NCBI GenBank assembly: GCA_947445225.1
Contig: CANFCX010000014.1
Location: forward strand, 1-35,888
Reading direction: 5' to 3'
DNA from: Rhodospirillales bacterium
GTDB taxonomy: Bacteria; Pseudomonadota; Alphaproteobacteria; CACIAM-22H2
DNA: 35,888 nt
The position numbers and the translations under genes were made by a program. Below, piece after piece: positions 26,293 to 35,888 of this stretch. The first letter of the stretch is position 1. Every line of letters begins with the position of its first letter. The notes beneath the pieces were generated by a model. The model did no database searches, had not been told where the DNA came from, and was given only the letters and a program-made list of their open reading frames with translations.

Positions 26293-26354
26293 CTCAACAT
26301 CCTCTCACGCCGCCCACGCAATTACGGTAGTACGCAATATCGCGGGGTGCAACG

Positions 26355-26371
26355 TCCATGGAGGAAAAAAC
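26355..26371. repeat. left arm of 17-bp perfect inverted repeat
   Basis: The plus strand reads TCCATGGAGGAAAAAAC. Its exact reverse complement occurs at 26895-26911, 523 bp away, bracketing the cytochrome c' gene and its terminator hairpin. On the minus strand this arm supplies the T-run of that terminator. Identity stops at the 17-bp boundary at both ends. Confidence 0.9.
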
Positions 26372-26400
26372 AAGCGCGAAGAGTCTCCCCTTCGCGCTTG
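26365..26400 (-). terminator. Rho-independent terminator after the cytochrome c' gene
   Basis: CAAGCGCGAAG (26371-26381) pairs with CTTCGCGCTTG (26390-26400), giving an 11-bp stem and an 8-nt loop. Read on the minus strand, six T residues follow directly (26365-26370). It lies 30 bp after the cytochrome c' stop and should end that transcript before the LysM gene. Confidence 0.88.
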
Positions 26401-26429
26401 CCTGACACCGAAGTATCGCTCGAAAAAAC

Positions 26430-26894
26430 TTATCTGCTCCGGAAAGTCTCGTGGCAACCGCCGCAGGCCTGCTGAGTGGCCGTGATCTGGGCCTTCAGCG
26501 CGTTTTCATCGGTGCCCTTGGCAGCCACGATCAACTTCGCCGATTCCGTCTCGAGCTTTTTCGCGGCGGCAACGAAGTCGTCCCTCTTGGACCAGATTTC
26601 GGGCTTCGCACGAGTCTCCGCGCCGGTGTTGGACCCGGCGGGGAAGAGAGCGGGAATTTGCATGCTGATGGCGTTGATGGCCGTCGCAAATTCGACAAAT
26701 CCGCCTTTGAACGTCACGGTGCCCTTGGCGAATTCGCCCATCGCACCCATGTGCGACGTGTTGGCCGTCATCAAGGACTTCCGGTATTTGATCACATTGG
26801 CCGGTTCATCGGCCGCCTGGACCAAACCAGCGACGCCGGTTAGGCAAATGGCGAGCCCGGCGATCATCGCCGTCTTGTTCACACGATACTTCAC
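26430..26894 (-). CDS. Cytochrome c' (paralogue A)
   Basis: Cytochromes c' are periplasmic four-helix haem proteins whose five-coordinate haem binds NO and CO; proposed roles are NO protection or electron transfer. This 154-residue protein has a signal peptide (MIAGLAICLTGVAGLVQAAD). It has the family segments KYRKSLMTANTSHMGAMGEFAKG and LFPAGSNTGAETRAKPEIW, and the C-terminal haem motif CGGCH at 144-148 followed by ETFRSR. I chose the GTG at 26894, seven bases after GGAGG, over the ATG at 26969, which puts 25 unrelated residues ahead of the signal. The GGAGG lies inside an inverted repeat whose other arm follows the gene. Confidence 0.92.
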   Translation of the reverse strand: MKYRVNKTAMIAGLAICLTGVAGLVQAADEPANVIKYRKSLMTANTSHMGAMGEFAKGTVTFKGGFVEFATAINAISMQIPALFPAGSNTGAETRAKPEIWSKRDDFVAAAKKLETESAKLIVAAKGTDENALKAQITATQQACGGCHETFRSR

Positions 26895-26911
26895 GTTTTT
26901 TCCTCCATGGA
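26895..26911. repeat. right arm of 17-bp perfect inverted repeat
   Basis: The plus strand reads GTTTTTTCCTCCATGGA, the exact reverse complement of 26355-26371. On the minus strand it carries the GGAGG ribosome-binding site of the cytochrome c' gene, ending one base before the GTG start. The flanking bases of the two arms differ. Confidence 0.9.
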
Positions 26912-27029
26912 TATTCCGGCGGGGCGTTCCCAGCCGGTGTGCACGCGACATAAACACGCAGCGCCGCACATTATTCCCGACCGACCGGGGCGCGGATTCA
27001 CATCACAACGTCTTGATCGCGAAAATGGA

Positions 27030-27055
27030 AGCGGCGAGCCAATAGGCTCGCCGCT
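27030..27055 (-). terminator. candidate terminator hairpin between cytochrome c' genes
   Basis: A perfect 11-bp stem, AGCGGCGAGCC paired with GGCTCGCCGCT, encloses the 4-base loop AATA. Read on the minus strand it follows cytochrome c' gene B by about 50 bp. The downstream sequence TTCCATTTTC is only weakly T-rich, so termination may be partial. If it works, paralogue A has its own promoter in 26912-27029. Confidence 0.5.
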
Positions 27056-27105
27056 CTGCCAAACCGACGGCCCACCACCATAGGGGCGGGCAATGTCGCC
27101 GAATA

Positions 27106-27591
27106 TTATTTCGCCGCGGGAGGCAGCGGCTTGCGGAAGGGCTGATGGCAGCCGCCGCAGGCCTGAGCGACCTTGCCGATCTGCTCCTTCATGGCCGCTT
27201 CATTGCCGGCCGTGGCCACCTCGGCCAGCTTTGTGGACTCTTCACCCAGGCGCTTAGCAGCGGCAAGGAAATCGGCGTTCTTCTGCCAGATCTCGGGCTT
27301 GGCATTGGTCCTGCCGGTATCGGTGCCCGCCGGGAACATGCCGGGGATCTCCAGCGACGTTCCGACCAAAGCTGCCGCGTAGGCCTTGATCGTGTCCTTG
27401 GTCACCACGGTGACTTCGCCTTTGGCATAAGCATTGAGGGCGTTCAAATACCCGCCATTGCCCTTCATCGCCGACTGGCGATACCGAATCATGTCGAGCG
27501 GGCGTGCCTGGGCAAATGCCTCAGCCACGATTCCCGCCATCGCCACGGCAACGGTTCCGATCGCCAAGCCGATAACCAAACTGCGTCTCAT
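27106..27591 (-). CDS. Cytochrome c' (paralogue B)
   Basis: This is a 161-residue exported haem protein of the cytochrome c' family. The signal peptide is MRRSLVIGLAIGTVAVAMAG, with cleavage probably after the AFAQA region. Family segments are IRYRQSAMKGNGGYLNALNA and MFPAGTDTGRTNAKPEIWQK. The haem motif CGGCH is at 145-149, followed by QPFRK and a short Pro/Ala tail that A and C lack. The ATG at 27591 has a strong GGAGGGAG site and replaces a longer frame with a poor N-terminus. It follows the diheme cytochrome gene by 64 bp and so probably shares its transcript. Confidence 0.92.
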   Translation of the reverse strand: MRRSLVIGLAIGTVAVAMAGIVAEAFAQARPLDMIRYRQSAMKGNGGYLNALNAYAKGEVTVVTKDTIKAYAAALVGTSLEIPGMFPAGTDTGRTNAKPEIWQKNADFLAAAKRLGEESTKLAEVATAGNEAAMKEQIGKVAQACGGCHQPFRKPLPPAAK

Positions 27592-27655
27592 CGAACTCCC
27601 TCCATCTTTCGAAATCGTCTTACACTTGAACGCGCCGCGGGCAAGCCCACAGACA

Positions 27656-28573
27656 TCACCTTGGTTTTTCAATCTTGTGGTCGACCGCCGGCAACGACAA
27701 AAGGTATTTGGCCATCGCCGTCCGATCGGCGTCGGTCAACTTGCTTGTACTTTCGCGTATGACTTCTGCCATCAGGCTTCCGACCACATCGCCACCCGGC
27801 ACGGCACCGGTCTTCAGCATATAAGCAAGGTCGATGTCGTCCCATTCGCCGATACCGGTCGCCTCATGCGGCGTGATATTCGGGGCCATCTCGCCTTCCG
27901 GCCCATCGATCGATCCAGCCATCCACCTGCTGCGATCCATGCCCCCCAACAGGTTGCGGGGCGTATGGCATTCGGCGCAATGGCCGAGCGCCTCGGTCAG
28001 ATAGGCACCGCGGTTCCATTCCGCGGATTTCGCGGGATCGGGCTTGTAGACGCCTTCCGTGAAGAAAAGCATCTTCCAACCGACCTGCAAGAACCGGAGA
28101 TTGAAGGGAAAACCGATATCGTGGGGTTTGTTGGCAAGGGCCACTGTCGGCAGCGAAAAGATGTAGGCCTTCAAATCCTTGATGTCCTGATCGGTCATCA
28201 AAGTGAATGACGTGTAGGGAAAGACCGGAAAATAGTGAGATCCGTCCGGCGACACACCTTCACGCAAGGCCCGCGTGAAATCGCCATCTGACCATTTGCC
28301 GATGCCGTTCACCGGGTCGGCGGTAATGTTGGGGCTGTAAAACGTGCCGAACGGCGTGGGCAAGGCCCGACCGCCGGCCAGCAAGGCGCCCTTGTTCTTC
28401 GTGTCGGTGTGGCACGGCGCGCAATCGGCGGCTCTGAAGATATATTCCCCGCGCTTGATCGCATCGGCATTGGCCTGCGCCGCTGCCGGCGCCGCGGCCG
28501 CTAGCATCGCGCCCGCGATCGCGAACACGGAGGCGAGGCCCTTCAGGACCACGTTCGCCGGAGTGGCAGTCAT
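27656..28573 (-). CDS. Periplasmic diheme cytochrome c
   Basis: This 305-residue exported protein has two class I cytochrome c domains. The haem motifs are CAPCH (51-55) and CAECH (199-203). The repeated TFYSPNITADPVNGIGKWSD and APNITPHEATGIGEWDD units each carry a candidate Met or other sixth ligand region. The architecture resembles cytochrome subunits of membrane-bound alcohol, gluconate and sorbitol dehydrogenases, but no dehydrogenase gene is adjacent. The signal peptide ends near AAAAPAAAQA. I chose the ATG at 28573, where GGTGATC matches the 16S rRNA tail; an ATG at 28591 is possible. It lies between two cytochrome c' genes in the same direction, suggesting joint electron transfer. Confidence 0.9.
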   Translation of the reverse strand: MTATPANVVLKGLASVFAIAGAMLAAAAPAAAQANADAIKRGEYIFRAADCAPCHTDTKNKGALLAGGRALPTPFGTFYSPNITADPVNGIGKWSDGDFTRALREGVSPDGSHYFPVFPYTSFTLMTDQDIKDLKAYIFSLPTVALANKPHDIGFPFNLRFLQVGWKMLFFTEGVYKPDPAKSAEWNRGAYLTEALGHCAECHTPRNLLGGMDRSRWMAGSIDGPEGEMAPNITPHEATGIGEWDDIDLAYMLKTGAVPGGDVVGSLMAEVIRESTSKLTDADRTAMAKYLLSLPAVDHKIEKPR

Positions 28574-28608
28574 CGGATCACCGTCTTTCATCAGCCTGGC
28601 GGAATTAA

Positions 28609-29079
28609 TTAGCGGTTGACGCGGAACGGCTCGTGGCAGATCGCGCAGGCGCGGCTCATGTTCTCGATCTCGTTGGTAAGCACCTGGTTGTCACTGCCCT
28701 TGACCGCGGCCAACAACTTCTCGCCGGCGGCGACGACTTGAACGACGATCTTGTTGAATTCATCCGTCTTTTGCCAGATGGCGGGATCGGCGATGGTGTC
28801 GCCGCCCTTTTCCGTGCCCTTGGGAAACACCGACGGAATCTCTTTCGAGCCGGCGATAATGGCTTCGGTCCAACCCACGAAGCCCGCCTTCGACGTGGTC
28901 CGTCCCTTGGCGAAGCTGGACATCGCGTCGAGGTGATCGCCCATGGCCGTCATTACGGCCTTGCGATAGGCAATGATCTTCTCGGGCTCGTTGGCCGCGG
29001 AGGCGGAGAAATCGACGCCGACCAGCGCCGCCAAACCAATGCCGCCAATGATCAATCCCTTGGTAACGCTCCGTCGCAT
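28609..29079 (-). CDS. Cytochrome c' (paralogue C)
   Basis: This is a 156-residue exported cytochrome c' family protein and the first gene of the cytochrome run. The signal peptide is MRRSVTKGLIIGGIGLAALVG to FSASA. Family segments are IIAYRKAVMTAMGDHLDAMS and VFPKGTEKGGDTIADPAIWQK. The haem motif is CAICH (145-149), followed by EPFRVNR. The x-x residues in the haem motif (Ala-Ile) differ from Gly-Gly in A and B. The ATG at 29079 has a GGGAGGAATTG site; a further upstream ATG adds 11 residues without support. It lies 35 bp before the diheme gene and is divergent from the LOG gene. Confidence 0.92.
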   Translation of the reverse strand: MRRSVTKGLIIGGIGLAALVGVDFSASAANEPEKIIAYRKAVMTAMGDHLDAMSSFAKGRTTSKAGFVGWTEAIIAGSKEIPSVFPKGTEKGGDTIADPAIWQKTDEFNKIVVQVVAAGEKLLAAVKGSDNQVLTNEIENMSRACAICHEPFRVNR

Positions 29080-29275
29080 CAATTCCTCCCGTCGCGCATT
29101 AATATCAGGCACACCTAGGCCGCTTCGATCGAAATACAGCCCGATCTGGTCCAGCGTAGGGCAAGTCTGTATAGCAGAGCACTATGCCCTGTGGAAGCCC
29201 CCGCGGCGCGGGCTTTCCGGCGCGGGCGGCGGCACCGGCGCAGGTCGTCGATTTCCTGGTGTAGGACCCTCGCCC

Positions 29276-35788: not shown

Positions 35789-35798
35789 CAGGGATGAA

Positions 35799-35830
35799 CG
35801 CAAGAAGGCCCCCGCGGGGGCCTTCTTGCG
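35799..35830. terminator. 32-bp perfect palindrome, terminator-like
   Basis: Two 16-base halves, CGCAAGAAGGCCCCCG and its exact complement, abut with no spacer. The central six bases would be forced into a loop in RNA. Following bases are GTTC on the minus strand and TTTC on the plus strand, giving weak T-tracts. It probably ends a transcript that enters from the right edge, though bidirectional use is possible. Confidence 0.6.
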
Positions 35831-35888
35831 TTTCGGCGTCATCCCTCAGGTCAGCCGTCCGGGGGGGTCGGTGGATCGGGAGCCGCGC

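Follow-up and report, generated by a model that had tools for sequence, protein, structure and literature searches.

In the analysed stretch of the genome of a freshwater Rhodospirillales bacterium (the window, 35,888 nucleotides), the 3' untranslated region (UTR) of a cytochrome c' gene is nearly entirely a reversed copy of the first ~38 nt of the gene, comprising the Shine-Dalgarno (SD) sequence, the GTG start and six codons, with a hairpin between the two blocks of the copy (Table 1). We suggest, with slightly less than even confidence, that this arrangement is the scar of an inverted duplication, mostly without function, which now supplies the U-tract of the terminator; we rank this explanation above RNA regulation and above coincidence. 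The repeat is probably not a dedicated switch.

Table 1. Features of the cytochrome c' locus, with positions in the window
Feature	Position	Strand	Basis and remarks
5' arm, block 1: TCCATGGAGGAAAAAAC, with SD GGAGG, abuts GTG	26895..26911	(-)	sequence, repeat search
cytochrome c' gene	26430..26894	(-)	ORF; PF01322 profile match, E 1.7e-31
block 2, 5' side: TGAAGTATCGTGTGAACAAG; final two bases of GTG and six following codons	26874..26893	(-)	fold, shuffle test, pair count
block 2', 3' side: TTTTTTCGAGCGATACTTCG, directly after stop codon	26409..26428	(-)	pairs with block 2 at 14 Watson-Crick and 4 G-U positions of 20
intrinsic-terminator-like hairpin (AAGCGCGAAG ... CTTCGCGCTT)	26372..26407	(-)	sequence and folds; between blocks 2' and 1'
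3' arm, block 1': GTTTTTTCCTCCATGGA; terminator U-tract first, then anti-SD CCTCC	26355..26371	(-)	sequence, repeat search
leader of downstream LysM gene	26293..26354	(-), same strand as cytochrome c'	93.5-100% identical in congeners

The cytochrome c' open reading frame is intact, with a GTG start at 26894-26892 on the minus strand, a TAA stop and the SD sequence GGAGG 7 nt upstream of the start. The translated product of 154 aa has a signal peptide and a CGGCH heme motif; both the PF01322 profile and the CxxCH motif near the C terminus place it among cytochromes c'. The gene belongs to a minus-strand cluster at 26430-29112 in which three cytochrome c' genes adjoin a cytochrome c gene carrying two CxxCH motifs.

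Block 1 is the sequence TCCATGGAGGAAAAAAC, which is found at 26355-26371 on the plus strand and exactly again at 26895-26911 on the minus strand, with a spacing of 523 nt. Our repeat search confirmed what an earlier note on this DNA had described, namely perfect 17-bp arms around the cytochrome c' gene, a ribosome-binding site (RBS) within the right arm, and a left arm that supplies the T-run of a terminator: the T-run behind the hairpin is the beginning of block 1'. The gap of one base which the note placed between arm and start has to be corrected, as the arm directly touches the GTG. The hairpin is 92-97% identical to its congeneric counterparts; it is absent from the list of a simple terminator scan. 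The adjoining 62-nt LysM leader matches one congener fully and the other at 93.5% identity, a higher conservation than that of the neighbouring cytochrome c' coding sequence.

No third copy of the 17-mer with up to three mismatches exists in the window, where shuffles predict 0.02 matches. In the 2.6-Mb genome, the search with up to two mismatches returned a single extra site, inside unrelated sequence, a looser search gave just scattered one-mismatch matches, and CCATGGAGGAAA did not occur again. Lacking a relevant third copy in the genome, the 17-mer was rejected as a mobile repeat or shared regulatory site. A family-wide feature of cytochrome c' was likewise rejected, since no similar repeat accompanies two neighbouring paralogues or the distant loci L004-L020 and L036. 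No known RNA family matched, and no plasmid relatives were found. The genome also contains compact inverted repeats. At 35797-35832 of the window, AACGCAAGAAGGCCCCCG and its complement form a perfect palindrome of 36 bp, which occurs four times in all (contigs C14, C25, C35 and C40), always within ~70 bases of a contig end, and so is probably part of a repeated element at which the assembly broke. No compact perfect palindrome in the survey was longer than a 29-bp inverted repeat without spacer at L082:8611-8668, and at L124:6705-6792 a nested inverted repeat, AT-rich and built around TTATACTCA / TGAGTATAA, has four related copies in 90 bp.

A second inverted block of ~20 nt (26874-26893 versus 26409-26428), overlooked in the earlier note, is collinear with the first and includes nine Watson-Crick pairs in one run. 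Because it was spotted in the transcript fold before testing, its shuffle figures are somewhat optimistic: with G-U pairs scored and block 1 given, such a match was reached in 1 of 5000 shuffles of the 3' side and in 3 of 5000 of the 5' side, and by identity alone in 21 of 5000. The score of 12.2 compares with 4.3-7.1 for six neighbouring genes in the same test.

The same locus is present in the same orientation in two congeneric genomes, which makes three species in total. Congener 1 is a lake metagenome-assembled genome (MAG) with the record label Asaia bogorensis (contig CAMDDQ010000003.1), and congener 2 a Baikal-deep MAG labelled Rhodospirillaceae (SHVT01000055.1). Our relatives scan of genome contigs found these two and a distant homologue, with no orthologous locus beyond the genus. 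In both congeners the two blocks can still be made out, in unchanged order, so the feature is older than the species. Block 1 has 14 Watson-Crick pairs, 1 G-U pair and 2 broken pairs in congener 1, and 16 Watson-Crick pairs with 1 G-U pair in congener 2; block 2 has, out of 20 positions, 14 Watson-Crick and 4 G-U pairs in the window, 13 and 4 in congener 1, and 11 and 4 in congener 2. Ten pairs vary: 6 are broken in some species, 3 are G-U swaps, 1 is never paired, and none shows compensatory change on both sides (in three species, two of which have a damaged gene). This points to decay rather than upkeep, although the missing covariation is weak evidence, since pairing may no longer have been under selection once the gene was damaged. 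The earlier note had proposed to compare close genomes for conservation of both arms. The arms are indeed there in both congeners, but they are no better kept than their surroundings among the three species: identity is 88-89% for the RBS arm, 90-92% for the coding region, 94-100% for the 3' arm and 93.5-100% beyond it.

The gene itself appears to have been damaged recently in the two relatives. In congener 1 it has an in-frame TAG and has lost the heme-ligand histidine (CGGCR), and in congener 2 the frame changes at both ends. Third codon positions nevertheless hold most of the differences (10/1/26 and 8/5/29 over the three positions), so to judge from the substitutions the gene looks to have been working there until lately, unless those assemblies are in error. 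The cytochrome c' cluster at 26430-29112 is retained in both congeners, with the first of its three genes damaged, and the neighbouring paralogues have open frames in each of the three species.

How surprising is such a repeat? The earlier note held that identical 17-mers this close are unlikely by chance. Length alone does not bear this out: a repeat finder applied to ~1.38 Mb of the genome, with 100-1500 bp between arms, gave at least 4 more exact inverted repeats with arms of 17 bp or longer (L045, L055, L058 and L087, which are GC-rich), and roughly 0.1 exact spaced repeat of such length is expected per window of this size. What is surprising is the position of the repeat together with block 2. 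According to a Gumbel fit to 20,000 shuffles, and with 2400 genes as an assumption, a 17/17 repeat linking the RBS and the 3' end of one and the same gene is expected 5.7e-6 times per gene, or ~0.014 times per 2400 genes; for one mismatch (16/17) the values are 1e-4 and 0.24. The latter is the fair figure, because in both congeners the RBS arm has a G within its A-run, and the perfect 17/17 would most simply reflect a recent single change in the window species. In the coincidental case, an A-rich SD spacer would have met a terminator T-run, with ten extra letters added by luck and block 2 noticed post hoc. The other spaced repeats in the genome are in favour of this, as is the A-run, which is complete in the window species only and leaves an ancestral 16/17 state within chance reach genome-wide. 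The chance overlap of T-tract and SD, offered in the earlier note as a fallback, does account for part of the match, but the ten letters beyond A6C agree as well (expected 0.002 times per 2400 genes, or 0.06 with one mismatch), they are followed by the collinear block 2, rare among shuffles, and CCATGGAGGAAA is found nowhere else in the genome. Spaced 17-bp repeats are thus not rare, yet position and second block make a purely chance origin of both blocks unlikely, and we regard coincidence as a rather doubtful explanation.

Two further explanations would give the repeat a function. In the invertible element imagined in the earlier note, recombination between the arms would flip the 523-bp unit and rebuild the gene on the opposite strand. 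Flipping would restore SD and GTG, and the T-run as well, and the 17-bp arm falls within the 10-40 nt reported for inverton arms (PMC11892184). As a switch of direction, however, the idea is not supported, on several counts. The assemblies of three species show a single orientation. In neither congener are the two arms identical, and they diverge independently between species, so they are not homogenised. No serine recombinase (PF00239) was found in the genome, which is ~97.5% complete, and the three tyrosine-recombinase (PF00589) matches, two XerC/XerD-like and one integrase-like fragment, are all on other contigs. A flipped gene would also lose its upstream region and so have no clear ON state, and cytochrome c' is not a surface gene. 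On the congeners, the arm divergence and the recombinase searches, we rejected inversion as the main reading and consider it extremely improbable.

The other functional explanation is pairing between the 5' and 3' ends of the mRNA. The 3' UTR is complementary to the gene's own SD, as in icaR mRNA, and the complementary part would be present in read-through RNA only. Read-through or imprecisely terminated RNA might fold its 3' UTR onto SD and start, which would block ribosomes and perhaps invite double-strand cleavage, leaving properly terminated mRNA as the only form to be translated. The read-through transcript has a predicted fold of -278.6 kcal/mol (z -6, 20 shuffles), in which the arms close the molecule around the intact terminator hairpin. 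The predicted probability that the SD is unpaired is 0.64 for RNA ending at the hairpin, 0.56 at U6, 0.20 for RNA ending UUUUUUCC and ~8e-5 for read-through RNA, so any effect would be confined to RNA past the terminator. The earlier suggestion that read-through pairing hides the RBS was right in its arithmetic and even understated (a fall from ~0.6 to 8e-5), but it finds no covariation behind it, in only three species. The three species' block 1 duplexes (-26.6, -17.2 and -27.5 kcal/mol) favour pairing, and the sole species with an intact gene is the one with a fully paired block 1. Against it, the transcript without the arm already has z near -5, and the anti-SD lies beyond the terminator U-tract and would be missing from most mRNA. 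Regulation of the icaR type is possible by analogy, but cis pairing as the explanation of the repeat seems to us unlikely on these predictions. Less likely still is a self-silencing mRNA, in which read-through transcripts would lock their own ribosome site while terminated mRNA would remain accessible, so that translation would be coupled to termination. Were such pairing selected, it would offer a simple route to termination-dependent translation and an alphaproteobacterial case of an icaR-like interaction between 5' and 3' ends.

We therefore return to the inverted-duplication scar as our tentative choice. In a genus ancestor, an event of the replication template-switch type would have copied ~38 nt of the 5' end of the gene (SD, GTG and six codons) in inverted orientation at its own 3' end. 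The terminator hairpin would have been set into the copy or have arisen beside it, and the duplication would then have decayed, with the T-run of the copy now acting as terminator U-tract. Normally terminated mRNA would stop before the anti-SD part; the joining of 5' and 3' ends, masking the ribosome site, would be a passive side effect limited to read-through mRNA. The sequences themselves show the two blocks in their order, present in three species and decaying in the relatives, whereas the duplication origin, the lack of a selected function and the termination before the arm are what we infer. The 17/17 match of block 1, the rarity of block 2 in shuffles, the unchanged block order and the decay in the congeners, and the absence of such a repeat from the other tested cytochrome c' genes support the scar. 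On the other side, the relatives scan gave no outgroup without the repeat and no orthologous locus outside the genus, and block 1 alone, with one mismatch, could be expected by chance (0.24). Moreover, the four transitions that separate the two copies, of which block 2 has three and block 1 of the inferred ancestor has one, all run in the direction that keeps G-U pairing, about a 1 in 16 outcome and a hint, from the substitutions, of RNA selection. Template-switch copies are usually made at a range shorter than 500 bp. If the scar is real, it clearly exemplifies how a gene's start, copied in reverse, can seed the 3' UTR and terminator of that gene.

Among known systems, invertons (DNA flipped by enzymes between short inverted repeats) resemble this locus in repeat length (PMC11892184). 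They differ in that here no inverted state is seen, no recombinase neighbours the repeat, and a whole gene without its upstream region is inside. In the icaR mRNA of Staphylococcus aureus, pairing of the 5' and 3' UTRs was proven by mutation and compensation and relies on a 7-nt UCCCCUG motif, 260 nt after the stop in a long 3' UTR and inside the mature mRNA (PMC3868564). The cytochrome c' 3' UTR likewise has an anti-SD stretch that could pair with the transcript's own SD; unlike in icaR, the match covers 17 + ~20 nt and the anti-SD is past the terminator U-tract. Template switching is reported to make reverse-complement repeats in one step (PMC8794818). Although here the event is deduced and the copy lies >450 bp away, split by a terminator hairpin, the locus shares with template-switch mutations a reverse-complement copy of a nearby stretch and the capacity to form a stem.
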